Assembly: GCA_017430455.1 (NCBI GenBank)
Contig: JAFRMX010000020.1
Coordinates: 1-64,000, forward strand
DNA length: 64,000 bases
Direction of reading: 5' to 3'
From: Oscillospiraceae bacterium
GTDB taxonomy: Bacteria; Bacillota; Clostridia; Oscillospirales; Oscillospiraceae
The translations under genes and the position numbers were made by a program. Of this stretch, positions 13,660-41,469 are shown in pieces. Position 1 is the stretch's first letter; the number at the start of each line of letters is the position of its first letter. The notes under the pieces were generated by a model that saw only the letters and a program-made list of their open reading frames with translations, ran no database searches and was not told where the DNA came from.

Positions 13660-15618
13660 TTAACCTTTGAACCAGTCGTTTTTCAGGATAACCGCTTTGC
13701 TGCAGGGACCGCTTCTGAACAGGTCACAGTCACCTGTTTCCTGAAGGCAAAGGGTAAGCTTTATCAGTCTTTCAGCGGCAACTTCAGCATTCCATTCTAG
13801 GGAGATCGTTTCATATGCCGCTGCACCAAGTTTCTGTTGATATTCCGGATCCGTGAGGACAGACTTAACTTTTCTGTAAAAATCTTCAAAATCACCGTAT
13901 CTGTATATAAGGCCGTTTTTGCCGCTGTCTATCAGGAAAGGCACGCTTCCTGCTGCGTGACTGGCCACAACTGCACAGCCGCTGTTCATGGATTCGTTGC
14001 AGACAGCTCCCCAGCCCTCAATGAAGTTGGACGTAAACAGGAAAATTCCGGCTTTTTCCATGTTATCCCGGACTTCTTCCGGTGACATGCTTCCGAGCAT
14101 GTGGACGCAGGAATCCAGGCCATAGCCGGAGATGAGACTCTTCAATTCGTCTTCCATCTCACCGTTGCCGATAATATCCATATCAAAATCGAGGCCTTCT
14201 TCATTAAGCCTCCTTGCAAGCTCAACAGCATATTCCGGGTGCTTGAGCGGAAGAAAACGTGATGCCCACAGTATTTTTTTCGGGTTTTTATTTGACAGCA
14301 ACGAGTCAACGGAGTATTTGCGGAATTCAGGGAAATAGCCCCACTTATATGCTTTTCCTTTAAAGCAGCCGTAAAGCGAATAATCGTGCAGTGTATACGC
14401 GCTGGAGCAGAGAAGGTAAAGATTTTTATAATGTTTGTATTTTTTTGAAAAGCGGATGTATCTTACAGGCCATTTATACCATTCGTATTTTGTGCGGTAT
14501 ATACGCTCATTTGAGAGAAGCACACACTTTCCGGCATCAAGTGATGGTTGGATATGATCCCTTATATCTCCTCCTGAGAGAATGGCATCTGCTTCAGAAA
14601 GCAAGGAAAGGCGTTCGGATTTTCCCTCTTCAGTATCTGAAAACGGAACTACAAAATCAACGTCTTTCAGAGGTTTCCATCCCATTTTCAGCCTTTTAGG
14701 TCCCATTGTGTCGGTTTCAATGAATTTAAAGCGCCCTCCGGTTATGGAATGCATAGCGTTGCAGAATGGAGCCTGATGATGGTTGTAAAAGTTTGAAATA
14801 TAAGCGAAATTCAAATAATTGTCCTTGTAAGAGGCTTTAAAACTGTGAGTGGTACGGCGGTCTTCTTCGGGAGGCGGAGTCATATAATCCCCGAATTGGG
14901 TCTTTAAATATTCATCAAAACCAACAGGAGCGGGAAAAGCTTTGCCCTCGAATTCCACGGAGACATTGCCGCCAAACCAGCTTCTTTCGCAGAGAATATA
15001 ATGCTTCGGGAGAGCAGAAGGTTTGCCGACATATTTCGAGGTCTCATAAGGATGATTCCTGCCGATTTTTAAGAAATAATTGTAAACAGCTCCACGGAAA
15101 TGTTTTAGAAAGAAAAGCCTTACAAGACGCAGAACATCAGCCGGCGAATGCGGTCTTTCATAATCAAACATCGAAATATAAAGCAGATAAGAGATCCGCT
15201 TGCAGTTTTTGAGTTTTTTTTCAGCTTTGGCGCGGTCATTGCCGAGCCCGTCCAAAGGGAAGACATCTATGCACACACCCGCGCCGGGGATGTCAAAATC
15301 ACGTTCCTTCAGTACGGTCTCAGAATCGATGATCTTGCCGAAAAGAAGCCCGTAAAAATTCCGGTCCGTCGAGAGATCGCGGAAACGGTACCGTTCATTG
15401 TCCGAATTGAATCTCGCTTTCAGTTCCTCATAATCCGGCCTCGGCATAAAGACATCGATATCGTCATCCCATGGTATGAATCCTTTGTGGCGCACAGCGC
15501 CGATCAGAGTACCGTTCCCGAGCCAATAACGAAGATTATGCATTTCACAGTAATCTGCAAATGCACATAATATACCGTATTCGGTTGACTTCAATTCAAC
15601 TAAAGTCAGCTGTTGCAT
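13660..15618 (-). CDS. LicD nucleotidyltransferase-like domain fused to a GT4 glycosyltransferase
   Basis: A two-domain protein. Residues 1 to about 270 are a LicD/fukutin-like domain with the diagnostic GNGTLIGAVRHKGFIPWDDD and the metal-binding acidic cluster DDDIDVF. LicD proteins transfer phosphocholine or a related phospho-alcohol to glycans. From about residue 285 a second domain is a GT-B glycosyltransferase of family GT4, with LWASRFLPLKHPEYAVELA in its sugar-nucleotide domain and an EX7E motif (EGWGAVCNE). The fusion would couple sugar addition with phospho-substituent transfer. The donors are unknown. It overlaps the upstream GT4 gene by 13 bases. Confidence 0.9.
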   Translation of the reverse strand: MQQLTLVELKSTEYGILCAFADYCEMHNLRYWLGNGTLIGAVRHKGFIPWDDDIDVFMPRPDYEELKARFNSDNERYRFRDLSTDRNFYGLLFGKIIDSETVLKERDFDIPGAGVCIDVFPLDGLGNDRAKAEKKLKNCKRISYLLYISMFDYERPHSPADVLRLVRLFFLKHFRGAVYNYFLKIGRNHPYETSKYVGKPSALPKHYILCERSWFGGNVSVEFEGKAFPAPVGFDEYLKTQFGDYMTPPPEEDRRTTHSFKASYKDNYLNFAYISNFYNHHQAPFCNAMHSITGGRFKFIETDTMGPKRLKMGWKPLKDVDFVVPFSDTEEGKSERLSLLSEADAILSGGDIRDHIQPSLDAGKCVLLSNERIYRTKYEWYKWPVRYIRFSKKYKHYKNLYLLCSSAYTLHDYSLYGCFKGKAYKWGYFPEFRKYSVDSLLSNKNPKKILWASRFLPLKHPEYAVELARRLNEEGLDFDMDIIGNGEMEDELKSLISGYGLDSCVHMLGSMSPEEVRDNMEKAGIFLFTSNFIEGWGAVCNESMNSGCAVVASHAAGSVPFLIDSGKNGLIYRYGDFEDFYRKVKSVLTDPEYQQKLGAAAYETISLEWNAEVAAERLIKLTLCLQETGDCDLFRSGPCSKAVILKNDWFKG

Positions 15619-16847
15619 ATTTCACCGTATATTTGAAGCAATCTCTGCATGTTTTTTTGGGGATCGTGCCGTTCTTTAGCTCGCACCATGGCTTTTTCGG
15701 CCATTGCGGACGACTTTTCCTTATCCTCAAAAACCCTGCAAACCGAATCGGCCAGAGCATTTGGATCATCGTATCGGTACAACAATCCTTCTTCAGGCGA
15801 TTCCAGTATGGAAGGAGTTCCTCCGGTGGAGGACGCCGCAACAGGGCATCCGGTAATCATAGCTTCACATATGGAATTGGAGGAATTCTCAAGCGTAGAT
15901 GCGGATACAAAGACTTCTGACAGCAAATACTGCTTGCACATGTTTTCTTCCGGCAGATTCCCAAGAAAAACCACATTGTTATTAAGACTGTTTTTATTAA
16001 TCAGAGATATCAGATATCTGTTGTATGAAGTAAGCCGAAGACGCTGCTGCACACTCAATTTCATAAGATCCCCGCCGGTTACATATATCTTCGTATCCGG
16101 GAATCGTTCAAGTATCCCAGGCATGGCTTCAAGCAGGAAATGGAAGCCTTTTACTGGGGAAGTGTACTGACTGAAAAAAATCGAATGAGGGATCACAGAA
16201 CGTTCATCCCTTGATGTCCTGTAGAAAGACGGCCTTAGTGTTTCATTACAGAAATAGTAATTCAGGCCGTAATTTATTCTCAGACAGGTTTCTTTGTCCC
16301 AGTCAGTCCTTCCGATTATGTTCTTTGCCTTTTTCAAAACCTCAATTTCCGCTCTGCCGCGGGCAGCATATGCTTCTTTTGCAAGAGCAATGTTATCGTG
16401 CCTTAAAAAATCGCGGAATGTATAGGAATTGACGATATGTTCGGGGACTCCGTCCGCATAATGCTTGGCATATTCGGATATTATCCCCTGAATGCTCACA
16501 ACACAACGGTCAAGAACGCCAAGCTTTTCGCATACTTCAACCGCAATTAAGGAATGGAAAAATTCAGCACCGTGTATATGTATAATGTCCGGCTTCCCTG
16601 AAGAAATAACCGATTCCATTCGCTTCCTGCAGTTTTTATCTCCAAAGGAATGACAAGAAAAGCCGGCAGTCTTTCCGTCTGTTTCCGGAGAAGCCAGATC
16701 TCTGTACAGAATACTGAAATCTATATCCGGATTTTTTGAAAGCATTTCAGCGGGCATATCGAGCCAGCCTCCGAAAACCTGAGCGGTATTCCCGAGCAGT
16801 TCGGAGACGATCTTAACTTTCTGATTGCATATCCAAAGTACTCTCAT
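15606..16847 (-). CDS. Glycosyltransferase family 4 (minus-strand operon)
   Basis: A GT-B glycosyltransferase for a cytoplasmic step of repeat-unit assembly. The C-terminal domain has the retaining GT4 signature EX7E (ENSSNSICE), then SSTGGTPSILESPEEGLLY, the phosphate-binding loop region. The N-terminal domain carries DIIHIHGAEFFHSL, the usual acceptor-side strand. I start at ATG 16847, which overlaps the stop of the polymerase gene as ATGA. A GTG twelve bases upstream is possible but inside that gene. The donor and acceptor sugars cannot be read from the sequence. Confidence 0.88.
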   Translation of the reverse strand: MRVLWICNQKVKIVSELLGNTAQVFGGWLDMPAEMLSKNPDIDFSILYRDLASPETDGKTAGFSCHSFGDKNCRKRMESVISSGKPDIIHIHGAEFFHSLIAVEVCEKLGVLDRCVVSIQGIISEYAKHYADGVPEHIVNSYTFRDFLRHDNIALAKEAYAARGRAEIEVLKKAKNIIGRTDWDKETCLRINYGLNYYFCNETLRPSFYRTSRDERSVIPHSIFFSQYTSPVKGFHFLLEAMPGILERFPDTKIYVTGGDLMKLSVQQRLRLTSYNRYLISLINKNSLNNNVVFLGNLPEENMCKQYLLSEVFVSASTLENSSNSICEAMITGCPVAASSTGGTPSILESPEEGLLYRYDDPNALADSVCRVFEDKEKSSAMAEKAMVRAKERHDPQKNMQRLLQIYGEICNS

Positions 16848-18130
16848 TTCAAATTCCACCGGATAAGAGGAAACAGATCTCCTTCATGCATACTAAAGGG
16901 AAGAATTATAAACAGGCCTATTCCTATAGGCGTCCAGAGGGAAGTGTTTATGAAAGAGAAAATAAAATATATGACGTATGAAATAATAAAACCGGGGCGC
17001 AGATCCCTGACTGTATATTTATACCCGCTTCTGAACATGTTGACGACAAACCAGATGAACAGCGCAAAGAAGAACACTCCGAAAAGAGCAAGCATATCGC
17101 CAAATTCCGAATGCCCTCCGCAAGTCGCGCTTCTGGTGAAATACCCGCCGAGAAGCTTTGACTCGCGAATACCTTCCAAAGTCAGGGAATAATGATACAG
17201 TCTGTCCTGAAGATCGGAATTGCCGACATCGAGCCCGGTAATCATCCGGTAAATGCTGTAGATCCTGTCCGATAATACCGACCCGAATAAATTGCTTTCA
17301 TACAGGGAAAGAAGGATTTTCGGCAACAGCAAAATCAACAGGGCAATAAGGATAATAAGCGAGATACTGATCGGGAGCCTGGCCTCTTTCTTCGATCTTT
17401 CAAGAATAACGATCATCACAGCAGCCAGAATACCGGAAGAGATAAGCATAAGCGCTATAGTAAACTGCGTTTTCATGACAGTAAACCAAAACAGCAGGCA
17501 ACAGACAATCAGGACCAGACTTTCATATCCGGGCTTTCTGTGTTTTCCCAATGCCCTGTAGAGAAAGGCTGGAGTCAGAAAAGACAGAGCTCCGACATGA
17601 TAGAAACCTATCATCGTATAAGTCTGGAGACCGTCATAGACCCCGTACATATCAGGGGAGACCAATGCCCTGGCATAATCGGGATATTCCTGAAGAAAAA
17701 TAATCGAGTGGACGCAGGAAATAACAGTCTCAAGAAACCAGACGGCAACAATGATTGCCCTGAACTTTTCAAATCCGGGGCGTGAATAGTACAGAAAGAT
17801 AAAAGCAAAAAACGCGAAAAAAAGAATGTTTTTGGTTGTTGCTGCAAGATAATTATCATTACTTTTGATCAGATACAAAGTCGCGGCAACCAGAAAGCAG
17901 ACAAGGACCGGCCACAGCAAAGAGAGCCATTCCTTTATTTGCCCTCTGCTGCCGATCATAGCAAACACGACCCAAGCCAGCATGGCGGAATAAGACAGAA
18001 TCCTGTATATACTGCTGGAAGTCTTTAAGGTCGATGACATAAGAGACTGAAGATAAAAAAGCGAAACCAAGGCCAGGAGCAGCATCAGCCATTCAAAATA
18101 TATTTTTTTCTTTTCTTTAAAGACCGACAC
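16844..18130 (-). CDS. Wzy-type O-antigen polymerase/ligase-like membrane protein (copy 1)
   Basis: About 11 transmembrane segments with a long outside loop before the last four. The phrase TCGGHSEFGDMLALFGVFF fits the conserved region of O-antigen ligase/polymerase (Wzy/WaaL) proteins. It should join lipid-linked repeat units on the outer face of the membrane. I choose the GTG at 18130, which has CGGAG seven bases upstream, over a TTG at 18154 with no ribosome site. It overlaps the upstream GT gene by 14 bases. A second protein of this type occurs at 61392. Confidence 0.82.
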   Translation of the reverse strand: MSVFKEKKKIYFEWLMLLLALVSLFYLQSLMSSTLKTSSSIYRILSYSAMLAWVVFAMIGSRGQIKEWLSLLWPVLVCFLVAATLYLIKSNDNYLAATTKNILFFAFFAFIFLYYSRPGFEKFRAIIVAVWFLETVISCVHSIIFLQEYPDYARALVSPDMYGVYDGLQTYTMIGFYHVGALSFLTPAFLYRALGKHRKPGYESLVLIVCCLLFWFTVMKTQFTIALMLISSGILAAVMIVILERSKKEARLPISISLIILIALLILLLPKILLSLYESNLFGSVLSDRIYSIYRMITGLDVGNSDLQDRLYHYSLTLEGIRESKLLGGYFTRSATCGGHSEFGDMLALFGVFFFALFIWFVVNMFRSGYKYTVRDLRPGFIISYVIYFIFSFINTSLWTPIGIGLFIILPFSMHEGDLFPLIRWNLK

Positions 18131-19274
18131 CGAAATTCTCCGTGATAAAATCAAGTATTCTTCGCGACTGGGTGATGCAGTTTTTATTGTTATAGATATA
18201 ATCTCTCGCCTTGAGCCCTTTTTCTTTAAGCTCAGAATCGGACTTGGAGGATATTTCCCTCATAGCAGCGGAGACACCGGAAGATGATTCCTCTTTAATG
18301 GAATAAACATACTTATAATACTCCGAACCTATGCCCGGAAGCACAGTCATAAGCACCGGAGTACCGCTTGCCATATACTCGAAAGTCTTTGAAGGGAATG
18401 AATATTTGCAGAATTCGGAACCGGAAGGACGGGGATTTATGAGAAGATCCGCTTCGGATTGCTTTTCGACAATAACGTTATTCGGAACTACACCGAAGAA
18501 TTTTATCCGGCTGTCTTTTCCGGCAAGCTCTGATAAATAAGGTGCGAGGTCGCCGCTTCCGTAAAAGTGCAATTCCCAATTCTCAAGTCCGGCATCGAGA
18601 AATCCCTTTATAAAGTATTCAAGTCCCGCCGCCTCCCTCCAGAGAGCCCCGCTGTATAGAGCAATGCGCTTATTTCCGCTTTTTTGTTTCAGATCAGGCA
18701 AAATGTCGCTGCAGCAGCCTTCCATGATCATATAGGGTCTGCGCTTCGGATTGACTACTTCGTTCATCTGCCGTGTAAGCAGAATATATCCGTCAAAATT
18801 CTTCATTATTGCCGCGTTGCGCCTGTCAAAAAAACCTGCTTTCCCGGTGCACATGTACTCCGGAACGTCGGTTATTATTGCAGAAGCAGGAATATTATTC
18901 TTTTTTGAAAGAACATAAGCTGCAACGGAAGGGGAAAACGCTATGGAGTCACAGATAATACATTGCGGTTTATATCTGTTTATTATTTTCTGCCCCTCCG
19001 AGAGCATATAATAAATATTATACAGATAGTGAAGCTTTCCGGTCCGGTTGCGGATACAGATATATCTGGCGGAGCCGATGCTTTCTTCTATTCTTTCTGC
19101 GTCAGTATTGTCATAAGGCAGATTTGAGAGGGCGGTGATATCCGTGAGGCTTCCCAGCCCTCTTATGAGATTGTTGTTGAATTTTTGCGCGGTATATCCG
19201 GCTTTTATTCTTCCTTCAGCTGCAAGTCTGTCGTATATAGGGTAAGCCGTAGCGCTGCTGATATACAGAATCAT
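18117..19274 (-). CDS. GT4-like glycosyltransferase (FPSKTFEYMASG type)
   Basis: A GT-B glycosyltransferase of 385 residues. The C-terminal domain has KRIALYSGALWREAAGLEYFI (sugar-nucleotide domain start) and KYSFPSKTFEYMASGTPVL, the variant of the GT4 donor-site motif seen in many EPS transferases. The N-terminal half contains PQCIICDSIAFSPSVAAYVL. It overlaps the downstream polymerase start and the upstream GT4 by a few bases, so it belongs to one operon. The sugar specificity is unknown. Confidence 0.83.
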   Translation of the reverse strand: MILYISSATAYPIYDRLAAEGRIKAGYTAQKFNNNLIRGLGSLTDITALSNLPYDNTDAERIEESIGSARYICIRNRTGKLHYLYNIYYMLSEGQKIINRYKPQCIICDSIAFSPSVAAYVLSKKNNIPASAIITDVPEYMCTGKAGFFDRRNAAIMKNFDGYILLTRQMNEVVNPKRRPYMIMEGCCSDILPDLKQKSGNKRIALYSGALWREAAGLEYFIKGFLDAGLENWELHFYGSGDLAPYLSELAGKDSRIKFFGVVPNNVIVEKQSEADLLINPRPSGSEFCKYSFPSKTFEYMASGTPVLMTVLPGIGSEYYKYVYSIKEESSSGVSAAMREISSKSDSELKEKGLKARDYIYNNKNCITQSRRILDFITENFGVGL

Positions 19275-20591: not shown

Positions 20592-22049
20592 ATGTTCAGG
20601 AAACAGTCCGATAATTGGACAAAGCATATTGATTTTATCATATTTGATCTCATAAGTCTTCATCTGGCTTTTCTGATCGCCTATTTCCTGCGTTACGGGA
20701 CCTTTTCCGTAAATCCTTATACCGATGAATACTGGACGAGGTTTATGCTTATATCCGAGATGATCGATCTGTTTGCTGCAGCTGCATTCAACACTTTCCA
20801 CAACGTCTTGAGAAGAGCTGCTTCAAAAGAACTCGGAGCATCTGTTCTTCAGGCTCTGGCGGTTATCATTCTGACGACTTTTGCCATGTATTCCCTTCAT
20901 ATAGGGGAAGTATACTCGCGTATCGTAACGTATCTCACAGGCGCGATATATGCAGTGCTGACATTTGCTGTACGCGTTCTCTGGAAGCATTATCTTAGAA
21001 GCAGATATACCGATGCCGGCAAAAGGCATATGCTGATAATTGCCCTTGAAAAGAATGCTGAAAAAATAGCGGACTCGATACTCTTTCAGGACAGAGACAG
21101 ATATGTCATTTCCGGGATCGCGGTTGAGAACGCGCGGCAGTCAGGGCCTGCCATAGGCAATTACAGAGTTGTTGCCGATAAGACGGATGTAACAGAATAC
21201 CTGAAGCGCAACTGGGTCGATGATGTTTTTCTGGATCCCGAGCTGGAGACAGAACAGGACTACAGCAAATTGAGGACTGATCTGGTCGAGATGGGTATAG
21301 TTACACATGCTCCGATAAAAGAGTATTCGGACATGAGCGGAAGAGAGCAGGCCATACAGACTATCGGCGGGAGCAGAGTCGTAACTACAGGGCTTAAAAG
21401 CGTTCCGGCATGGCAGCTGTTTATCAAAAGGCTTTCCGATATTCTGGGCGGTCTGATCGGGACAGCAATCACGCTTGTTCTTACGGTCTTTATTGCTCCG
21501 GTGATATGGATGACCGATCCGGGGCCTGTGTTTTTTACACAAACGAGAGTCGGAGAAAACGGAAAACGTTTCAAAATGATCAAATTCAGAAGCATGTATA
21601 AAGATGCGGAGAGACATAAAGCGGAGCTGCAGACAGGCGAAAACTCTGACGGGTTGCTTTTCAAGATGGAAGCGGATCCCAGGATCATAGGCTGTAAGGT
21701 AAATGAGGACGGGTCTGTAAAAAAAGGCTTCGGCAATTTTCTGAGAGATTCAAGCCTTGATGAGTTCCCCCAGTTTATCAACGTTCTTCTCGGGCAGATG
21801 TCCATGGTAGGAACAAGGCCTCCAACCGTGGATGAGTGGGAGAACTACGACCTTCATCACCGCGCGAGACTCTCGGTCAGACCGGGGATAACAGGACTCT
21901 GGCAGGTGAGCGGAAGAAGCAATATACAGGATTTTGAAAAAATCGTTGAGCTGGATACGGAATATATAAACAACTGGTCACTTTTGCTGGATCTTAAGAT
22001 TCTTATAAAAACGATTTCCGTAGTAATAAAAAAAGAAGGGGCGATGTAA
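20592..22049 (+). CDS. Polyprenyl-phosphate sugar-1-phosphate transferase (copy 1)
   Basis: Starts repeat-unit synthesis by moving a sugar-1-phosphate from a nucleotide sugar onto undecaprenyl phosphate at the inner membrane face. The 485 residues show four N-terminal hydrophobic segments (about 12-135), a Rossmann-like middle (about 140-270) and a C-terminal bacterial sugar transferase domain. That domain has DPGPVFFTQTRVGENGKRF, KFRSMYKDAE, the catalytic Asp-Glu in SSLDEFPQF, VGTRPP and GITGLWQVSGRS. The ATG has GGGGAG upstream. It overlaps the next, closely related gene as TAATG. The sugar is unknown; Glc-1-P or Gal-1-P is common in this subfamily. Confidence 0.95.
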   Translation: MFRKQSDNWTKHIDFIIFDLISLHLAFLIAYFLRYGTFSVNPYTDEYWTRFMLISEMIDLFAAAAFNTFHNVLRRAASKELGASVLQALAVIILTTFAMYSLHIGEVYSRIVTYLTGAIYAVLTFAVRVLWKHYLRSRYTDAGKRHMLIIALEKNAEKIADSILFQDRDRYVISGIAVENARQSGPAIGNYRVVADKTDVTEYLKRNWVDDVFLDPELETEQDYSKLRTDLVEMGIVTHAPIKEYSDMSGREQAIQTIGGSRVVTTGLKSVPAWQLFIKRLSDILGGLIGTAITLVLTVFIAPVIWMTDPGPVFFTQTRVGENGKRFKMIKFRSMYKDAERHKAELQTGENSDGLLFKMEADPRIIGCKVNEDGSVKKGFGNFLRDSSLDEFPQFINVLLGQMSMVGTRPPTVDEWENYDLHHRARLSVRPGITGLWQVSGRSNIQDFEKIVELDTEYINNWSLLLDLKILIKTISVVIKKEGAM

Positions 22050-23518
22050 TGTACAAAAAACGCTCTTCCGGGTGGATCAAACATATAGACTTTATAATAA
22101 TAGATCTCCTGTGCCTGCATTTGGCTTTCATTTTTGCGTATATCATGCATTTTGCCGGAGATACTTACGAGTTCGGGACCAATCCTTACAGTGAGCCTGA
22201 CTGGGTGAGATTCATGGTAATGATGGAGATCCTGGATTTTATGTTCATTATCGCGACAAATTGCTTTTCAAATGTGCTCACCCGCGATTGGGGAATAGAA
22301 ACGCGAAGAAGTTTTGAGCAGGCTGTTTCTGTCGAGGTTCTGATGACATTTGCTCTTTATGTCCTGAAACTTGGGGAGACATATTCAAGGACAGTTCTGC
22401 TGCTGACAGGATTTTTATATTTTGTGCTTACTCTTCTTACGAGAATGTTCTGGAAACATGTTCTGCGAAGCCGCTATACAGACGCTGGAAAGAGGCACCT
22501 TCTCGTAATTACAAAAGCCGATAACGCTAAGAAACTTGCCGATTCCATTCTCGACAACAACAGAGACCAATATGTTATTTCGGGCATTGCAGTGATGGAT
22601 TCAAAAAAGCAGGATGCAGATATCGGAAACTACAATGTGGTGGCGGACCGGGAAAGCATAGTGGATTATATCCATTACAATTGGGTCGACGAGATATATA
22701 TCGATTCGTCACTCGAAGACGAGCCATATTATACTGAACTTCGAAGTGATATAGCAAAAACGGGCATTACTCTTCATACTCCCATAAGGACTTGGGACGA
22801 GGAAGAAGGAAAAGAACATATTCTCCAGAAAATCGGAGAGAAACAGGTCATAACGTCCGTAATCAATCCGGTTCCGGCCTGGAAGCTCCTGATCAAAAGA
22901 CTGACAGATATACTCGGAGGAATAGTGGGAAGTATAATTACGATCATTCTTACCGTTTTTGTTGCTCCCGCCATATATTTTTCCGATCCCGGACCGATAT
23001 TTTTTACACAGACAAGGGTTGGAGAAAACGGAAAGCCCTTCAAGATAATCAAATTCCGCAGCATGTATAAAGATGCTGAAGCCAAAAAGGCCGAACTCCT
23101 TGCCCAGAGCGATGTTGATGACATTATGTTCAAGCTCAAATTCGACCCTCGCATAATCGGATGTAAAAAGAATGAAGACGGGAGCATAAAAAAAGGTATC
23201 GGCAATATCATAAGGGACACAAGCATTGATGAATTCCCGCAGTTTTTCAACGTGCTAATGGGAAACATGAGCCTTGTCGGGACAAGACCTCCCACAGTAG
23301 ACGAATGGGAACGCTACGATCTTCACCACAGGGCAAGGCTTGCGGTAAAACCCGGAATTACGGGACTGTGGCAGGTCAGCGGAAGAAGCAATGTAGAAGA
23401 TTTCGAAAAAGTTGTGGCCTTTGACACGGAGTATATCAACAACTGGTCACTTTGGCTTGATTTTAAAATACTGCTCAAAACCGTTGTGGTCGTTTTCAAG
23501 AGAGAAGGAGCAATGTGA
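22049..23518 (+). CDS. Polyprenyl-phosphate sugar-1-phosphate transferase (tandem copy 2)
   Basis: A full-length paralogue of the gene immediately upstream: four membrane segments, middle domain, and an intact C-terminal transferase domain with DPGPIFFTQTRVGENG, TSIDEFPQFFNVLMG, VGTRPPTVDEWE and GITGLWQVSGRS. The two share the same opening (HIDFII-DL-LHLAF) and the same ending (REGAM or KEGAM), so the pair arose by tandem duplication. The middle domain differs most. Both keep the catalytic residues, so neither looks like a relic. They may use different sugars, or work as a heteromer. The stop overlaps the next start as GTGA. Confidence 0.95.
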   Translation: MYKKRSSGWIKHIDFIIIDLLCLHLAFIFAYIMHFAGDTYEFGTNPYSEPDWVRFMVMMEILDFMFIIATNCFSNVLTRDWGIETRRSFEQAVSVEVLMTFALYVLKLGETYSRTVLLLTGFLYFVLTLLTRMFWKHVLRSRYTDAGKRHLLVITKADNAKKLADSILDNNRDQYVISGIAVMDSKKQDADIGNYNVVADRESIVDYIHYNWVDEIYIDSSLEDEPYYTELRSDIAKTGITLHTPIRTWDEEEGKEHILQKIGEKQVITSVINPVPAWKLLIKRLTDILGGIVGSIITIILTVFVAPAIYFSDPGPIFFTQTRVGENGKPFKIIKFRSMYKDAEAKKAELLAQSDVDDIMFKLKFDPRIIGCKKNEDGSIKKGIGNIIRDTSIDEFPQFFNVLMGNMSLVGTRPPTVDEWERYDLHHRARLAVKPGITGLWQVSGRSNVEDFEKVVAFDTEYINNWSLWLDFKILLKTVVVVFKREGAM

Positions 23519-24615
23519 TTAAGGTTGCCCAGGTAATAGGAAAACTGAATAAAGGCGGAGTCGAAGCGGTGATAAACAACTATTACCGCTATATCGACCG
23601 TGATAAGTTTCAGTTTGACTATTATATCGATTCGGACGGATCCTGTGAGCCGTCTGAAGAGATGAAGGCCTTGGGCGCGCGTTATTTTGTTATTCCTCCG
23701 TATCAGAAGCTTCCTCAGTATATGGAGGCGCTTGAAGAGCATTTCACAAGAGAAAAGTACGATATCGTCCACGTCAACATGAATACGCTGTCGCCCTTTG
23801 CTCTGAGGGCTGCAAAAAATGCTGGGATCCCTGTCCGGATCAACCACAATCACTCGACTCTCGGCAAAGGCGAAACGAAAAGAAATGTCTTGAAATATGC
23901 TCTGCGCCCGTTTGCCAAAAAGTATGCTACGGATCTCGCTGCCTGCAACGAGACCTGCGCGGGATGGCTTTTCGGTAAAAATGCATTTGAAAAGGGAAGA
24001 GTCAAAATACTAAGAAACGCGATAGATCTAGAAAAATACGCGTACGATTCATCTGTGAGAGACGGGAAACGCAGAGAGCTTAATATAGAAAAAAGGACTG
24101 TAATCGGGCATGTAGGCAGATTCTGCACGGTGAAGAACCATCGTTTTGTCCTGGAGATCTTTGCAGAGTATCTGAAAAGAGACTATAATGCGGTGCTCCT
24201 TCTCATAGGGGATGGTCCGCTTATGGCAGATACGAAAGCGAGAGCGGAAAGCCTCGGAATTAGCAGAAATGTTGTGTTTACGGGAAATCGCGACGATGTT
24301 CCCGAGCTGTACAACGCCATGGACCTTGTTTTGCTTCCGTCTCTGTATGAAGGACTTCCCATGGTCGGAGTCGAGGCACAGGCAAACGGGCTTCCGGTAA
24401 TCATGTCAGACAGAGTGCCCCGGGAGGCAAAGCTGAGCAGTTCGGTTTCCTTTCTGCCTCTCGGAGACGCGAAGCTGTGGGCAGACGCCGCGGAGGAAGC
24501 GGTAAGACACTCAAGATATGATACCTTTGAGGAAATGAAAAGATCCGGATACGACATAAAAGAGGAAGCAAGAGTGCTTGAAGACTGGTATCTTCAGATT
24601 CTGAAGCGAAAATAA
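23515..24615 (+). CDS. Glycosyltransferase family 4 (EpsF/CapM-like)
   Basis: A GT4 enzyme opening with IKVAQVIGKLNKGGVEAVI, the pattern of EpsF and similar capsule transferases. The donor domain has IGHVGRFCTVKNHRFVLEIF and EX7E (EGLPMVGVE). It uses a GTG start that overlaps the stop of the second initiating transferase, so it is probably the enzyme adding the second sugar after lipid priming, as its place suggests. A second protein with the same HVGRF-VKNH pattern is encoded at 62815. Sugar specificity unknown. Confidence 0.9.
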   Translation: MIKVAQVIGKLNKGGVEAVINNYYRYIDRDKFQFDYYIDSDGSCEPSEEMKALGARYFVIPPYQKLPQYMEALEEHFTREKYDIVHVNMNTLSPFALRAAKNAGIPVRINHNHSTLGKGETKRNVLKYALRPFAKKYATDLAACNETCAGWLFGKNAFEKGRVKILRNAIDLEKYAYDSSVRDGKRRELNIEKRTVIGHVGRFCTVKNHRFVLEIFAEYLKRDYNAVLLLIGDGPLMADTKARAESLGISRNVVFTGNRDDVPELYNAMDLVLLPSLYEGLPMVGVEAQANGLPVIMSDRVPREAKLSSSVSFLPLGDAKLWADAAEEAVRHSRYDTFEEMKRSGYDIKEEARVLEDWYLQILKRK

Positions 24616-24621
24616 AGCAAG

Positions 24622-25710
24622 ATGAATATAGCAATGATCGGGCATAAGCAGGTTCCTTCAAGGGAAGGCGGAATAGAAGTTGTCGTTTCGGAACTTGCTT
24701 ACAGAATGGCAGAAAAGGGGAACAGCGTAACCTGTTTTAACCGTAAAGGCGGCAAAGAAACTGAAAGCAGAGTCCCTTATAAAATAGTAACGGTCCCGAC
24801 TGTAAAGAAAAAAGGACTCGCCGCGGCTTCATCTTCTTTTTTTGCAGCGCTCAGAGCGGCTGCCGGAAATTTTGATGTGGTCCATTTCCATGCGGAGGGG
24901 CCTGCTTTTATGTGCCGGATCCCAAAGCTTGCGGGGAAAAAAGTAATAGTAACGGTGCACGGGCTCGATCACCGGAGAGCCAAATGGGGACGCTTCGCGT
25001 CCGCCTATATAAAAGGCGGGGAGAAAAATGCGGTAAAGTATGCTGACCATATTATAGTTCTGAGCAGGAATGTTCAGCAGTACTTTCTGGATACATATGC
25101 CAGAGAAACAGTCTATATTCCAAACGGAATAGAGCGCCCCGAGAATAAAGGTCCTGATCTGATAACAAAAAAATACGGGCTCAGAAAAGACGGATATATC
25201 CTTTTCGTCGGAAGACTTGTGCCGGAAAAGGGCCTTACATATCTTATAGAGGCATTTAAAAATACCGTCACAGACAAGAAACTTGTAATAGCCGGCGGGA
25301 GTTCTGATACGGATGTATTTACCGGAGAACTTAAAAAGGCCTGCGAGAATGATGACAGGATCATTTTTACGGGATTCGCGGCGGGAAGACTGCTTGAAGA
25401 GCTTTACAGCAACGCGTATGTCTATGTCCTGCCGAGTGACGTGGAGGGCATGCCCCTTACGCTTCTTGAGGCTATGAGCTACGGGAACTGCTGCCTTACA
25501 AGTGATATAGCCGAATGTACAGAGGTCACGGAAGATAAGGCGCTTTCTTTTAAAAAAGGAGATCCTGCCGATCTGAAAGAAAAATTGCAGTATCTCATAA
25601 ATAAAAAAGATATTGTATCGTACTACAAGGCAGATGCCTCGGATTATGTCTGTTCCAAATATAATTGGGACGAAGTGACAGACAGGACACTCATGCTCTA
25701 CAGGAACTGA
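24622..25710 (+). CDS. Glycosyltransferase family 4 (GGIEVVV type)
   Basis: Opens with IAMIGHKQVPSREGGIEVVV, the start typical of rhamnosyl- and related GT4 transferases whose N-terminal domain is classed with DUF1972. The donor domain shows YILFVGRLVPEKGLTYLIEAF and EX7E (EGMPLTLLE). The N-terminal domain carries VVHFHAEGPAF and TVHGLDHRRAKWG. It follows the previous GT4 by six bases and has only a weak ribosome site, so coupling is likely. Rhamnose as the sugar is possible but not shown. Confidence 0.88.
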   Translation: MNIAMIGHKQVPSREGGIEVVVSELAYRMAEKGNSVTCFNRKGGKETESRVPYKIVTVPTVKKKGLAAASSSFFAALRAAAGNFDVVHFHAEGPAFMCRIPKLAGKKVIVTVHGLDHRRAKWGRFASAYIKGGEKNAVKYADHIIVLSRNVQQYFLDTYARETVYIPNGIERPENKGPDLITKKYGLRKDGYILFVGRLVPEKGLTYLIEAFKNTVTDKKLVIAGGSSDTDVFTGELKKACENDDRIIFTGFAAGRLLEELYSNAYVYVLPSDVEGMPLTLLEAMSYGNCCLTSDIAECTEVTEDKALSFKKGDPADLKEKLQYLINKKDIVSYYKADASDYVCSKYNWDEVTDRTLMLYRN

Positions 25711-25722
25711 AACGGAATTGCA

Positions 25723-26940
25723 ATGAAAATTCTGATGATCAATAAATTTCTATATCCGAACGGGGGATCAGAGACATATATGTTCAAGCTCGGTGAAGAG
25801 CTTGAAAGTCAAGGGCATTCAGTCCAGTATTTCGGAATGGAACATGAAGGACGCTGTGTCGGCAATTCCGCAGGAGCCTATACTTCCGAAATGGATTTCC
25901 ACAACGGGAGCAAACTTGCAAAACTGACATACCCGATAAAGACCATATATTCCGCGGAGGCTAGAAGAAAGCTGAGAGAAGTTCTCGATGATTTCGCGCC
26001 GGATGTTTGCCATCTCAATAATTTCAATTATCAGCTGACACCTTCCGTTATTGAGGAAATAGCCGGATGGAGAAATGAAACAGGAAGAAAATGCTGTATC
26101 TTCTATACTGCGCATGACTACCAGCTGTTATGCCCCAATCATATGATGAGAAATCCGAACACGGGAACCAACTGTGAAAAGTGTCTGGGAGGACATTTCA
26201 TAAACTGTGTAAGAGGCCGATGCATCCACAGGTCACTTTCCAGGAGCATTATAGGGGCCGCGGAAGGTTTTTTCTGGAGCCGGAGAAAGGCATACGGTCA
26301 TATAGACAGAATAATATGCTGCTCAGAATTTCTGAAAACCAAAATGGATACAAATCCCGTCTTCAGGGATAAAACGATCGCGATCCACAATTTTGCAGAC
26401 AGAGATACTTCGGAGATAAAAGAAAAAAAAGAGTATGTTTTATATTTTGGCAGGTACTCCGAGGAAAAAGGAATCAGGACTCTCATTAAAGCATGCAAAG
26501 AGCTTCCGGAGATAAAATTCGTGTTCGCAGGCTCGGGTCCGCTTGCACCGGAGATAAAAGGTATTACAAACATTGAAGATTCCGGATTTAAAACCGGAGC
26601 TGAACTTGTTGATCTCATTAAAGGAGCGTTATTCAGCGTATATCCTTCCGAATGGTATGAGAATTGCCCGCTCTCAGTAATGGAAAGCCAGATCTGCGGT
26701 ACGCCGGTCCTTGCCGCGGCAATCGGAGGAATACCGGAACTCATAAAAAACAAAGAGGCCGGCGAACTCTTCGAAAGCGGAAATGCAAAAGACCTGAAAG
26801 AAAAAATAAGAGATCTTTATGATAACAGAGAGAAACTGGAGTTTTATACCGGTAATTGTCTCAAGGCAGCCTTCGATACAGCGGAAAGCTACAGCAAAAA
26901 GCTTGTACTTTTATATGAAGACAGCCTGAAGGGTAAATGA
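25723..26940 (+). CDS. Glycosyltransferase family 4 with Cys-rich insert (ExpE7-like)
   Basis: A 405-residue GT4 enzyme opening KILMINKFLYPNGGSETYMF. The donor domain has YVLYFGRYSEEKGIRTLIKA and EX7E (ENCPLSVME). An unusual piece after the N-terminal domain's TAHDYQLLCPNHMM is a Cys cluster, CEKCLGGHFINCVRGRC (about residues 151-167), seen in ExpE7-like transferases and able to bind a metal or form disulfides. It stands directly before the radical SAM gene. Confidence 0.88.
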   Translation: MKILMINKFLYPNGGSETYMFKLGEELESQGHSVQYFGMEHEGRCVGNSAGAYTSEMDFHNGSKLAKLTYPIKTIYSAEARRKLREVLDDFAPDVCHLNNFNYQLTPSVIEEIAGWRNETGRKCCIFYTAHDYQLLCPNHMMRNPNTGTNCEKCLGGHFINCVRGRCIHRSLSRSIIGAAEGFFWSRRKAYGHIDRIICCSEFLKTKMDTNPVFRDKTIAIHNFADRDTSEIKEKKEYVLYFGRYSEEKGIRTLIKACKELPEIKFVFAGSGPLAPEIKGITNIEDSGFKTGAELVDLIKGALFSVYPSEWYENCPLSVMESQICGTPVLAAAIGGIPELIKNKEAGELFESGNAKDLKEKIRDLYDNREKLEFYTGNCLKAAFDTAESYSKKLVLLYEDSLKGK

Positions 26941-26970: not shown

Positions 26971-28152
26971 ATGCCTGAAAAGAAACTCAACGGGACCGTA
27001 ATCGTAACATATCGCTGCAACGCCAGATGCACTATGTGCAACAGATACAAAGCGCCTTCCCTTCCGGAAGAAGAAATAAGCATCGAAACGATAAAAAAGC
27101 TTCCGCGCATGTATTTCACAAACATAACCGGAGGCGAGCCCTTCATCCGAAAGGATCTTAAAGAGATCGTAAGGGAGTTGTATAAAAAAAGCGACAGAAT
27201 AGTCATTTCGACCAACGGTTTCTTTACCGACAGGATAATTGACCTCTGCAGGGAATTTCCTCAGGTCGGAATAAGAATATCCATAGAAGGGCTTGAGAAG
27301 ACAAATAACGAGATAAGAGGCCTTCCCGACGGATTTAACCGGGGCTATACAACGCTTAAAACTCTGCGGGAAATGGGTATGAAGGATGTTGGCTTCGGAA
27401 TGACAGTACAGGATAAAAATGCTCCGGACCTTGTACCTCTCTATGACCTCTCCGATAAACTCGGAATGGAATTTGCCACGGCTTCGCTTCATAACAGCTT
27501 CTATTTTGTGGAAGCAAAAAATGTTATTCACGACCGCCCGATGGTCGCTGAAAACTTTGAAGCGCTGGTCAACAAACTGCTGAGAAGCAACAGCCCCAAA
27601 AAATGGTTCCGCGCTTACTTTAATCACGGACTGATAAATTATATATACGGGCAGAAACGTCTGCTCCCCTGTGATATGAGTTTTGATACATTCTTTATAG
27701 ATCCTTACGGCGACGTAATGCCGTGTAACGGGACTAAAGACAAGGAAGTCATGGGAAATCTCAATACTCAGACCTGGGACGAGCTTTGGAACAGTCCGGA
27801 AGCAGAAAAGGTAAGAAACAAAGTCCGCCATTGTGACAGGCAGTGCTGGATGATTGGTTCTGTAAGTCCTGCAATGCACAAATATATCCGGGTCCCTGCC
27901 TGGTGGGTATTCCGCCATAAACTGAAAGCGCTTTTTACCCGAAAACCCTATTCGATGTATGAACTCAAATGCTGCCGGGACTACAGAGACGGAAAGCTTA
28001 CAAAAGAAATGTGCGACGCCTGCTCTACATGTGATCTGGCGGCGGTCGCAAATAACGGATTATCCGCTGCGTCACGCGATCTTCTTAAGACAAAAACTGG
28101 CGAAGAAATCGTTGCTGAAGATAAGGATGTCAGAGAAAGGACTTTTGATTGA
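26971..28152 (+). CDS. Radical SAM/SPASM protein inside the glycan cluster
   Basis: Radical S-adenosylmethionine enzyme of 393 residues. The N-terminal 4Fe-4S/SAM motif is CNARCTMC (Cys16, Cys20, Cys23), followed by NITGGEPFIRKDL for SAM binding. The middle has DPYGDVMPCNG, typical of SPASM-type extensions that bind extra clusters, and the C-terminus carries further cysteines (CDRQCW, CC and CDACSTC). Its substrate is unknown. The setting among glycosyltransferases, with a TTGA overlap to the next GT4, suggests modification of a sugar, an anchor lipid or a cluster-associated molecule instead of a peptide; no small precursor peptide gene is nearby. ATG 26971 has GGAG nine bases upstream. Confidence 0.9.
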   Translation: MPEKKLNGTVIVTYRCNARCTMCNRYKAPSLPEEEISIETIKKLPRMYFTNITGGEPFIRKDLKEIVRELYKKSDRIVISTNGFFTDRIIDLCREFPQVGIRISIEGLEKTNNEIRGLPDGFNRGYTTLKTLREMGMKDVGFGMTVQDKNAPDLVPLYDLSDKLGMEFATASLHNSFYFVEAKNVIHDRPMVAENFEALVNKLLRSNSPKKWFRAYFNHGLINYIYGQKRLLPCDMSFDTFFIDPYGDVMPCNGTKDKEVMGNLNTQTWDELWNSPEAEKVRNKVRHCDRQCWMIGSVSPAMHKYIRVPAWWVFRHKLKALFTRKPYSMYELKCCRDYRDGKLTKEMCDACSTCDLAAVANNGLSAASRDLLKTKTGEEIVAEDKDVRERTFD

Positions 28153-29246
28153 AGAGAGTTTTATATATCTCCAATATCGAATCCCCATACAGATCCGGAT
28201 TTTTCAATGAACTTGCCGGGCATTGCGATCTGACCGTGTTGTATGAAAGAAAAGAATCGTCAAACCGTAACAGCCTTTGGGCGCATTCGGAGGAATGCAG
28301 ATACAACAGACAGTTTCTGGGAGGAATAAAGACCGGAAATGAAACGGCCTTTTCTCTCTCAATTCTTAACTGTTTTAAACAGGATTATGACATTGTTATT
28401 ATCGGATGCTGTAACAGTCCTGCTGAAGTCTTTTCGTTACTTTTCCATAAAAGGATCCCATCGCAAAAAGTGTTCATTAATCTTGACGGGGAACAGTTTA
28501 TAGCAGGCGACATCATTAAATCAAAAATTAAAAAGTATGTATTGAAATATGGAGATGCATATCTAGTCGCAGGGGAAAAAAGCGCGGAAAATCTCAAAAA
28601 AGCAATAGGACATAAGAAGGAAATAACCCCTTATTATTTCAGTTCGCTTTCCGTTCAGGAGCTTGAAAAACACAGAAATTCCTTTGAAACCGGGGCAGAG
28701 CGTTCTTCGCCCGGGAGAAATAATACTATTCTGGTGATCGGGCAGTACTATGATTATAAAGGATTGGATATAGCGCTTGAAGCGGCAGCAAAGAATAAGA
28801 ATCTTTTTTACAGATTTGTCGGCATGGGAAAGAGGGCGGAGTTGTTTCAAAAAAAGGCCGAAGAACTGGGAGCAGCAAATATAGAGGTTATTCCGTTCCT
28901 CCAGAAGAAAGAACTTGAGGAGGAATACCTGAATGACAGAATGCTTGTTCTTCCGTCCAGAAAAGAATGCTGGGGCCTGGTGGTCAATGAGGCGGCTTCT
29001 TTTGGTATGCCGGTAGTTTCCACCTGGGGGAGCGGAGCAGGCGTGGAATTCCTGTCAGATAAATATCCGGAGTTTCTGGCAAAACCGGGCGATGCTGACG
29101 GACTGTTGAATTGCATCGAAAAACTGCTGGCACTTGATGATAATTCCCTGAGAGAATACAGCAGATATCTGATGCATAAATCGAAGGATTATTCTATAGA
29201 GCGGTCCGTACAATGCCATATTAAAGCTTTGAAATTGGAACAATAA
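28149..29246 (+). CDS. Glycosyltransferase family 4 (TTG start)
   Basis: Opens KRVLYISNIESPYRSGFFNEL, close to the minus-strand GT4 at 19271. The donor domain has NNTILVIGQYYDYKGLDIALEAA and EX7E (ECWGLVVNE). The TTG start overlaps the radical SAM stop as TTGA and has AAAGGA seven bases upstream. From here to about 31.7 kb the sequence becomes visibly richer in A+T, which may mark a separately acquired block. Confidence 0.85.
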   Translation: MKRVLYISNIESPYRSGFFNELAGHCDLTVLYERKESSNRNSLWAHSEECRYNRQFLGGIKTGNETAFSLSILNCFKQDYDIVIIGCCNSPAEVFSLLFHKRIPSQKVFINLDGEQFIAGDIIKSKIKKYVLKYGDAYLVAGEKSAENLKKAIGHKKEITPYYFSSLSVQELEKHRNSFETGAERSSPGRNNTILVIGQYYDYKGLDIALEAAAKNKNLFYRFVGMGKRAELFQKKAEELGAANIEVIPFLQKKELEEEYLNDRMLVLPSRKECWGLVVNEAASFGMPVVSTWGSGAGVEFLSDKYPEFLAKPGDADGLLNCIEKLLALDDNSLREYSRYLMHKSKDYSIERSVQCHIKALKLEQ

Positions 29247-38963: not shown

Positions 38964-40142
38964 ATGAATGTCGCATTCATTCCGGTCAGGGGCGGGAGCA
39001 AATCGATTCCGCTGAAAAACATAAAACTCATGGCGGGAAAACCGCTTGTATATTGGACTGCCAGAGCCGCTTGCGAGTGCAGGTATACAGACAAAGTTTT
39101 TATCTGCACGGACAGCGACAGGATCCGGGAAGCAGTTGAAGCCTTCAGGAGGGAAGAGAGCTGTTTTTCGAAGCTTGAGGTTGTCGCCAGATCCGCAGAA
39201 TCGGCGACCGATACTGCTTCTACAGAATTTGTAATGCTTGAATTCGCAAAGCAGCATGATTTCGATAATATAGCGCTTGTTCAGGCGACCTCTCCATTGC
39301 TTGAAGCGGCCGATCTTGACAAAGGCTTTGAACTCTTTTCCGGGAAAGAGACAGACTCCGTTATGTCTGTTGTACACCAGTACCGGTTCAACTGGAAGTA
39401 TGACGAGCGTGGTTTTATAGTTCCGACAAACTATGATGTGTTCCATCGTCCGCGCAGACAGGAATTTGCCGGTTATCTTGTTGAAAACGGAGCCTTTTAC
39501 ATAACATCCAAAGAGAGACTGGTCAGCACAAAAAACCGGGTTTCCGGCAAAATCAGAGCAGTGGAGATGTGTGAAGAGAGCTTCCTTGAGATCGACGAGC
39601 CTTCGGACTGGATGATCATAGAAGGGCTTATGCGGGAACGCGAACTGAAAAGAAGACAGGCGAAGACTCCGGAAATAAAGATGTTCCTCACTGATGTCGA
39701 CGGATGCCTTACAGACGGAGGCATGTACTATTCCGAAAAAGGCGACGAACTGAAGAAATACAATACCAGGGACGGAATGGCCTTTAAACTTCTGAGAGAG
39801 AAGGGAATAATCACCGGAATAATCACATCCGAAAACGTGGAGCTTAACAGGCGCCGCGCGGAAAAGCTGAAACTTGATATATATCTGCCCGGATGCAAAG
39901 ACAAAGCAGCTGCAATAACGCGGCTTTCGGAACAGTATCATATCCCGCTTGAAAATATACTGTATGTCGGGGATGACATAAACGATATTGAGGCAATGAA
40001 AATTGCCGGGGTGCCATGCTGCCCGCGAGACGCGAACAAAGAAGTCCTTCAATATGCGAAGTGTGTGACAAAAGCCTCCGGAGGAGAAGGCGTGATCAGA
40101 GAGATAACGGATATGATGATCGGCGGAAATCTGCATGAATAG
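38964..40142 (+). CDS. CMP-nonulosonate synthetase fused to KdsC-like HAD phosphatase
   Basis: Two domains. Residues 1 to about 230 are a NeuA-type cytidylyltransferase with AFIPVRGGSKSIPLKNIKLM at the nucleotide site, then LVQATSPLLEAADLD and AFYITSKERL. Residues 235-392 are a HAD phosphatase of the KdsC/KDN-9-phosphatase type: LTDVDGCLTDGGMYYSEKGD (Asp244 and Asp246 catalytic), then YNTRDGMAFKLLREKGI and YVGDDINDIEAMKIAG. It would remove the phosphate from a nonulosonate-9-phosphate and activate the product with CMP. AGGAGA precedes the ATG. The same two-domain arrangement is known for some animal and bacterial CMP-sialate synthetases. Confidence 0.88.
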   Translation: MNVAFIPVRGGSKSIPLKNIKLMAGKPLVYWTARAACECRYTDKVFICTDSDRIREAVEAFRREESCFSKLEVVARSAESATDTASTEFVMLEFAKQHDFDNIALVQATSPLLEAADLDKGFELFSGKETDSVMSVVHQYRFNWKYDERGFIVPTNYDVFHRPRRQEFAGYLVENGAFYITSKERLVSTKNRVSGKIRAVEMCEESFLEIDEPSDWMIIEGLMRERELKRRQAKTPEIKMFLTDVDGCLTDGGMYYSEKGDELKKYNTRDGMAFKLLREKGIITGIITSENVELNRRRAEKLKLDIYLPGCKDKAAAITRLSEQYHIPLENILYVGDDINDIEAMKIAGVPCCPRDANKEVLQYAKCVTKASGGEGVIREITDMMIGGNLHE

Positions 40143-41469
40143 TACTGAGGAGCTGCCAAAAAAAGATCTCAAGCGTATATTAAAAAATGTCGCTTGGCTG
40201 GTCTACAACAATGTGTTCAACCTCCTTTTGAGCCTGTTTGTAACCGTAAAGGTTGCAAACCACTACGGATCTTTGGGATATGGCACATATCAGTATGTTA
40301 TCAGCCTTGTAGCAATACTTGAGGTTCTCGCCTATTTTACTGACGGCAGAGTAGTAAAGAAAGAGTACGATATTTACGATCCCGCAAAAGTAGTATTAAC
40401 GGCTACTTTTTCAAGGCTTTTCCTTTCAGCTGTATCTGCAGCAGCGGGGATCATATTCGCACTCTTCTACAGTGGCGGAAGAGAATTCAATCTGATCCTT
40501 GCTGTGTTGCTGTTGAATTCCATAGTCGGCAGCACATTTTTCGGTGCCTCAAACAGGTTCGAATATCTCCTGATATCAAAGAGAAATGTTATTGCAGGCA
40601 ACATTGCAGCAATTACCGGCGCTTTGCTTCAGCTTCTTGCGGTAGAACTTCAGTTGCCTATAATAGTGCTGCCGGTCATCTCACTGCTCACCACTGCGAT
40701 CACTGCTTTAGTTATTATTCTTCAGTATAAGAAAGAATTCGGCCTTTCGTTCGGGACTGAGCTTATTGACAGGGATCTTCTCAAGGCGCTTTATAAAGAG
40801 AGCGCTCCATTGGCGATCGCCTCGGCATGCGCGATCATTTACACAAGGTGTGACTCGCTCATGGTAGGGAATATGCTTTCCCTAGCTGAAGTCGGAGTAT
40901 ATGCGATCGCCATAAAGCTGATCAATATCGTAAACATGCCGTTAGGGCCGATCCGCGAATCCTTTTATCCAAAGCTGATTCAAATCTATCGTACGGATAG
41001 AGACCGATACGCAAGGATGTATATAAGACTTTCAAGTTTTTTAACATGGTTTTGTGTCATCGGAGTCCTGTTTTCATTCCTGGTTTTGCCGTATTTCTTC
41101 AAATGGCTGAACAAAGAGTACTATGAGGCGCTTGGCGTATATCGGGTCTATGTCATATACAGTGTTATCTCTTACAACGCGGGACTGAGAGCGGGGCATC
41201 TCACGCTGATCAACCGTGGGACAATATTGGCTTACGCTCAGGCGGCAAGTGTTGTGATCAATATAATACTGAATATCGTTCTGATCAAAAACTACGGTAT
41301 ATACGGAGCCGCCGCTGCGACTTCAATAACCCAGTTCCTGTCGCTCACGGTGTCCAATCTGTTCTTCAAAAAGGACGGCAGGGAAGTATTCAAATGGCAG
41401 ATAATGGCGCTGAACCCGCTTGAAATGCTTCCGAATTACAGGAAATCAACAACGGACGTTCAAGTATAA
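40135..41469 (+). CDS. Wzx-type polysaccharide flippase (copy 2)
   Basis: A 444-residue flippase of the MOP superfamily with about 12-14 membrane segments. Phrases are VAWLVYNNVFNLLLSLFVTV, YGSLGYGTYQYVISLVAIL and IYGAAAATSITQFLSL. It is only distantly like the minus-strand flippase and overlaps the CMP-sugar synthetase by eight bases. Position at the end of the nonulosonate block suggests that it exports the unit carrying that acid. The sequence just after its stop continues as a short open frame, described separately. Confidence 0.92.
   Translation: MNSTEELPKKDLKRILKNVAWLVYNNVFNLLLSLFVTVKVANHYGSLGYGTYQYVISLVAILEVLAYFTDGRVVKKEYDIYDPAKVVLTATFSRLFLSAVSAAAGIIFALFYSGGREFNLILAVLLLNSIVGSTFFGASNRFEYLLISKRNVIAGNIAAITGALLQLLAVELQLPIIVLPVISLLTTAITALVIILQYKKEFGLSFGTELIDRDLLKALYKESAPLAIASACAIIYTRCDSLMVGNMLSLAEVGVYAIAIKLINIVNMPLGPIRESFYPKLIQIYRTDRDRYARMYIRLSSFLTWFCVIGVLFSFLVLPYFFKWLNKEYYEALGVYRVYVIYSVISYNAGLRAGHLTLINRGTILAYAQAASVVINIILNIVLIKNYGIYGAAAATSITQFLSLTVSNLFFKKDGREVFKWQIMALNPLEMLPNYRKSTTDVQV

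Follow-up and report, generated by a model that had tools for sequence, protein, structure and literature searches.

Background
Several described radical SAM enzymes resemble the protein reported here in fold, in sequence or in proposed chemistry. BlsE, a cytosylglucuronate decarboxylase (PDB 7vob), removes the carboxyl group of a glucuronic acid moiety at C5, according to part of its published description (PMC3715490). The sporulation killing factor maturase SkfB (PDB 6efn) has a ribosomal peptide as its substrate, while the twitch sugar dehydrogenases BtrN (PDB 4m7t) and SpeY (PDB 7wzv) belong to aminoglycoside pathways, in which BtrN oxidises an aminocyclitol. NeoN is a radical SAM epimerase which, as described in part of one account, inverts a sugar carbon of neomycin C once the antibiotic is complete, Cys249 serving as hydrogen donor (PMC10991966); together with HygY it is set alongside our protein by description only, from that account and its references, the likeness lying in the proposed chemistry, in which a sugar carbon within an oligosaccharide would be inverted.

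We report on a radical SAM gene in a polysaccharide locus of an Oscillospiraceae bacterium, within a stretch of 64,000 nucleotides (contig JAFRMX010000020.1, positions 1 to 64,000; hereafter the window). In the literature searched, mostly without subscription journals, we found no paper on this family, and in the public annotation of Segatella copri DSM 18205 its member is called "radical SAM protein" and nothing more. The family is uncharacterised and combines a commonplace radical SAM fold with a setting that is unusual and well conserved: a well-conserved radical enzyme that, beside two GT4 glycosyltransferases in capsule clusters of gut bacteria, probably alters a sugar of the surface polysaccharide. 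If so, it would give anaerobes an oxygen-sensitive route to unusual capsule sugars and would change what hosts and phages see. The carriers include common gut genera and S. copri DSM 18205, and the existence of cultured carriers makes the question testable.

The radical SAM gene and its conserved cysteines
The open reading frame described in an earlier note was recovered at 26971..28152 on the forward strand; it starts with ATG and encodes a protein of 393 residues (P0001), as called from the reading frame, Pfam and relatives. A scan of the genome collection confirmed at least 536 relatives, and the 80 best-scoring of these (82-88% identity), a set therefore biased to high identity, were aligned with the window protein. 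With at least 536 places encoding relatives and 205 of 389 aligned positions invariant among the 81 sequences, 26971..28152 is not a chance reading frame.

The protein matches the Pfam Radical_SAM domain (63 bits, cut-off 29.5) and has the previously noted CNARCTMC motif at residues 16-23. The cysteines of its CX3CX2C motif (C16, C20 and C23; 27016..27039, +) are invariant in 81/81 sequences as well as in a 23-row alignment reaching down to 28% identity, and are the predicted ligands of the SAM-binding [4Fe-4S] cluster. A Pfam SPASM match (residues 234-292; 45.2 bits, cut-off 21.5) corresponds to the auxiliary-cluster region C234...C252...C288-X3-C292 (27670..27846, +), whose four cysteines constitute one auxiliary-cluster set and are kept in all 81 sequences; in the 23-row alignment C288 is kept in nearly every row and the other three in all. 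Full SPASM proteins, which have two auxiliary clusters, carry a seven-cysteine motif including CX2CX5CX3C. Since the CX2CX5C part is absent, the present protein is twitch-like, and its four conserved auxiliary cysteines would bind a single cluster. Hence, the earlier assignment of SPASM-type cysteines stands with respect to the Pfam domain and one auxiliary set, but does not extend to the seven-cysteine motif.

The unusual C-terminal end (CC...CDACSTC) also attracted attention before. Its last CxxC is conserved (C351 and C354 of CSTC, 28021..28032, +; C351 in 75/81, C354 in 80/81 and both together in 75/81), whereas C335 is present in 54/81 and C334 and C348 occur in the window protein only (1/81). 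Moreover, conservation of CSTC is limited to the long-tailed subfamily, to which the odd tail belongs: this tail is missing from the relatives at 63, 65, 51 and 39% identity, which are 318-354 residues long. Among the 25 listed of 48 NCBIfam matches no curated model scored over its cut-off; the best-scoring, TIGR03961 (rSAM_PTO1314), a family of unknown function, gave 83.9 bits, far below its cut-off of 306.05.

Predicted fold and nearest solved structures
In the AlphaFold model (pLDDT 85.9, pTM 0.85) the tail from approximately residue 351 is poor. Ranked by fold, BlsE is closest (Z 24.0, 289 aligned residues, 3.1 A), followed by SkfB (Z 22.5, less than 2 below BlsE) and SuiB (Z 20.8). BlsE acts on a sugar ring and, like the window protein, has a CxxxCxMC triad with Met; however, the two are only 17% identical, their sequence match is limited to the radical SAM core (residues 16-163), and the BlsE substrate is a nucleoside sugar acid in antibiotic synthesis, outside polysaccharide loci. 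A BlsE-like fold alone tells neither function nor substrate. By sequence SkfB is the closest among solved chains (E 7.6e-19, residues 7-163), again in the radical SAM core only, and in contrast to SkfB no precursor was found at the window locus. Because this best match is a peptide maturase, sequence by itself cannot tell a sugar substrate from a peptide one. The auxiliary-cluster stretch aligns with the twitch sugar dehydrogenases, residues 229-291 matching BtrN 163-226 with C234 and C252 over BtrN cysteines, although the overall fold match to BtrN is weaker (Z 13.5).

The polysaccharide locus
Glycosyltransferase genes lie on both sides of the radical SAM gene, as noted before, and the reported overlap with a GT4 gene (28149..29246, +; Pfam) amounts to four bases. 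This GT4 is not a conserved partner; a counterpart at 45% identity or more was found in 1/80 loci. The surrounding run consists of 21 genes between 20592 and 42627, with 19 of the 20 gaps being at most 30 bases and the last 114 bases. It begins with two tandem copies of the initiating enzyme, polyprenyl glycosylphosphotransferase (20592..22049 and 22049..23518, both +), which score 349.9 and 356 bits against TIGR03025 (cut-off 295.55) and are 59% identical to each other. These are followed by a GT4 glycosyltransferase gene (23515..24615, +; Pfam) and by the two partner GT4 genes, here named GT4A (24622..25710, +), which is distantly like Cps2T (121.9 bits, cut-off 500), and GT4B (25723..26940, +). 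The other genes of the operon encode GT2 enzymes, an acetyltransferase-like protein, FdtA, a DegT aminotransferase, NeuB, a cytidylyltransferase and a flippase, the last being a Wzx-type candidate (Polysacc_synt; 40135..41469, +; Pfam). The candidate polymerase (Wzy; 16844..18154, -) has no Pfam match and about 10 hydrophobic segments, and its assignment is inferred.

Between 33195 and 41469 there are genes for FdtA, the DegT aminotransferase and a NeuB-family synthase, and the cytidylyltransferase is fused to a domain like KdsC or KDN-9-phosphate phosphatase; this predicted gene content suggests that the glycan contains a nonulosonic acid as well as an amino-deoxyhexose. Another glycosyltransferase operon, running in the opposite direction, encodes a single protein in which a LicD domain precedes a GT4 domain (13660-15618, -).

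Association with GT4A and GT4B
Profiles were built for the two upstream GT4 families and these separate their members from other GT4s (GT4A at least 184 vs at most 81 bits; GT4B at least 158 vs at most 92 bits). Counted over the 66 loci whose upstream DNA spans 8 kb or more, GT4A was detected in 55, GT4B in 55, both in 49 and either in 61, and an initiating transferase in 31; four loci lack all three, which counts against a tailoring role. In a class sample of 291 genomes, GT4A is present in 12/13 genomes carrying the radical SAM gene vs 19/278 non-carriers (Fisher 2.8e-12), and GT4B in 8/13 vs 14/278 (Fisher 2.8e-7). GT4A is at most 5 kb away on the same contig in 10 of the 12 carriers that have it and on another contig in two (G085 and G237), while in the sole carrier without it (G251) the radical SAM gene is near a contig end. 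Thirteen genomes have both GT4A and GT4B without the enzyme, a further point against a tailoring role. Together, the locus and class-sample counts indicate that the GT4 pair can do without the enzyme, while the enzyme is nearly always accompanied by one or both of these GT4s; the enzyme accordingly looks like an optional tailoring step.

The association extends beyond the closest relatives. GT4A-family genes also adjoin the gene in relatives at 75, 63, 65, 51 and 39% identity; a short-form member (L112, 51%) has the initiating transferase, GT4A, the radical SAM gene and GT4B in a row; and in S. copri DSM 18205 the gene is flanked by GT4B- and GT4A-family genes, one on each side. Presence of the enzyme clusters on both GT4 trees, requiring 4 changes vs a shuffled mean of 13.3 for GT4B and 5 vs 17.4 for GT4A; on both trees the biased set supplies most of the rows that have the enzyme, and the class sample most of those that lack it. 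A nucleotidyltransferase was considered as a partner and rejected, being found in only 8/80 loci. For L144:9581-10678 and L145:9866-10963, the radical SAM gene is on a different contig from the GT4A/GT4B pair, and in L144 the next gene encodes a WecG/TagA/CpsF-type transferase.

Fusion of reading frames
GT4B and the radical SAM gene form a single open frame in 8/80 loci (L004, L005, L008, L050, L051, L060, L064 and L073), and in 18 further loci GT4B ends at most 120 bases from the conserved start region of the enzyme. The fused frames occupy separate places of a weakly supported tree on which at least 5 changes are needed, the starred branches forcing only one. Judged by eye, an AAGGAG-like stretch and an ATG remain in the linker, and the free enzyme is therefore possibly also made from fused frames. 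LicD was discarded as a fusion partner, with one read-through frame only (L039; LicD domain 129 bits).

Proposed reaction and alternatives
That the enzyme acts on a sugar of the window's polysaccharide we regard as probable. The fuller chain of reasoning, in which a twitch-like radical SAM enzyme acts as a tailoring enzyme on the repeat unit of a surface polysaccharide of the Wzx/Wzy type, at a carbon that is left free, has in our judgement an even chance of being correct. The SAM-bound [4Fe-4S] cluster would, as the family motifs imply, cleave SAM to give a 5'-deoxyadenosyl radical, which would then take a hydrogen from a ring carbon of a sugar added by the initiating transferase, GT4A or GT4B; the constant gene linkage and the in-frame fusions point to these sugars. 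The substrate might be a nucleotide sugar, a lipid-linked short glycan or a sugar held by GT4B. By analogy with NeoN, the most plausible outcome would be that the carbon radical is re-protonated from the other face to yield an epimer, oxidation to a ketone, dehydration and decarboxylation being alternative fates. We advance the epimerase assignment tentatively, at somewhat less than an even chance; its main weakness is that the family has no universally conserved non-ligand cysteine as hydrogen donor, C351 and C354 being absent in short forms and located in the low-confidence tail. The more specific proposal of a radical C5-epimerase, which would work on the lipid-linked repeat unit and turn a D-hexose or D-uronic residue there into the L-epimer, is rather improbable.

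An earlier suggestion was that the enzyme alters a sugar or a lipid anchor. Our data favour a sugar rather than a peptide, but provide nothing for a lipid anchor. A C-terminal helix (residues 307-320) is basic (net +4) and aromatic, yet not amphipathic (hydrophobic moment 0.17), and a membrane-binding helix was therefore dropped as support for a lipid-linked substrate.

A sugar dehydrogenase or dehydratase, which would act on the same substrate but oxidise its radical to a ketone, as BtrN does, or eliminate water, leaving another enzyme of the locus to finish the sugar, is an unlikely though credible alternative to epimerisation. The BtrN match of the auxiliary stretch and the lack of a universal free cysteine of the epimerase type both agree with it, but neither a reductase nor an aminotransferase family is among the conserved neighbours, where the two GT4 families (51 and 37 loci) are followed by transferases and acyltransferases.

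The enzyme could instead be a maturase whose target, either a small peptide or a protein (the partner GT4, for instance), is encoded elsewhere; the status of SkfB as the closest solved sequence, the several peptide maturases among the next folds and the peptide cassettes near a few relatives speak for this. Precursor genes were sought among small ORFs of 20-110 codons that lie no more than 3 kb from the gene and have at most 30% of their length inside a large ORF. The only one in the window has 25 codons and lies on the other strand, in keeping with the prior observation that no precursor-peptide gene is nearby, and no conserved small ORF was found in more than 7/81 neighbourhoods; by eye, all seven are fragments of a nearby gene for a membrane acyltransferase. 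In a 35-row tree, in which nine PapB-model rows represent the peptide maturases (SkfB, AlbA and other maturases are not included), the family (10 rows) forms a branch of its own (support 99) apart from the PapB-model rows, joined by two relatives at 28% identity (L106 and L107; support 99) that are also located among glycosyltransferases. Thus, neither of the two results named in the earlier note as refuting it, a precursor revealed by a finer search and clustering with peptide-maturation enzymes, was obtained with the small ORFs and maturases sampled. Furthermore, no curated peptide-maturase model is over its cut-off among the 25 listed of 48 NCBIfam matches. Taken together, we consider a peptide or protein maturase rather improbable.

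PqqD-type peptide cassettes are found near the locus in 2/80 relatives (L012 and L074) and beside L110 and L111. Each of these cassettes (L110:471-7693, L111:1575-8186, L012 and L074) carries its own second radical SAM gene; the other parts, not all of which occur in each, are PqqD, an S24-like peptidase, an ABC transporter and an NTP_transf_5 nucleotidyltransferase.

Still less probable is a decarboxylase that, like BlsE, would act on a uronic acid residue and so leave a pentopyranose in the polysaccharide. The closest fold is that of BlsE and a putative UDP-sugar dehydrogenase family, identified by sequence, is encoded near the gene in 13 loci, but only in these 13, and the BlsE sequence match is confined to the radical SAM core. 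Finally, that the protein merely stabilises or gates GT4B, without radical chemistry on the product, is suggested by the reading-frame fusion but is highly improbable given that all cluster ligands are invariant in 81/81 sequences.

Distribution and selection
The family is patchy but widespread in gut Bacillota and is also present in Bacteroidota. The best 80 of at least 536 relatives comprise 37 from Lachnospirales, 23 from Eubacteriales, nine from other Bacillota, six from Bacteroidales, one each from Monoglobales, Acetivibrionales and Spirochaetales, and two unplaced; the carriers include the gut genera Faecalibacterium, Blautia, Roseburia, Coprococcus and Butyrivibrio, and also Pseudobutyrivibrio species. 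Close to the window organism the gene was found in 1/36 genomes of the same genus and 1/23 of the same order, while the class sample gave 13/291 genomes (E 1e-30) and a phylum sample 5/299 (1e-20). In the tree, all Bacteroidales rows fall on a single branch (support 98) and the other orders are mixed, which is compatible with, without proving, horizontal movement.

The median amino acid identity of the 80 relatives to the window protein is 83%, and fourfold-degenerate sites differ at 0.727 vs 0.743 expected at saturation; approximately 83% protein identity despite saturated synonymous sites points to an old divergence under strong purifying selection. The enzyme is more conserved than GT4A in 11/11 genomes holding both in the class sample, whose members were not picked by score. 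Pairwise comparisons within the biased 80-locus set likewise show stronger conservation of the enzyme, in 1828/1830 pairs against GT4A, 1886/1891 against GT4B and 325/325 against the initiating transferase.

That the gene is a mobile or viral one was considered and rejected: viral_contigs gave seven pattern matches with none confirmed, and there are two plasmid records and five "phage" records, the latter at no more than 52% identity. Two of these five (MT836080.1, L167, and MT836979.1, L168), encoding relatives at 50-52%, are UNVERIFIED, unannotated "Bacteriophage sp." faecal scaffolds and are possibly bacterial contigs. The plasmid-listed records are from S. copri DSM 18205 (NZ_CP085934.1, L165) and Pseudobutyrivibrio xylanivorans (NZ_CP043029.1, L166), and in both there are IS transposases near the radical SAM gene.
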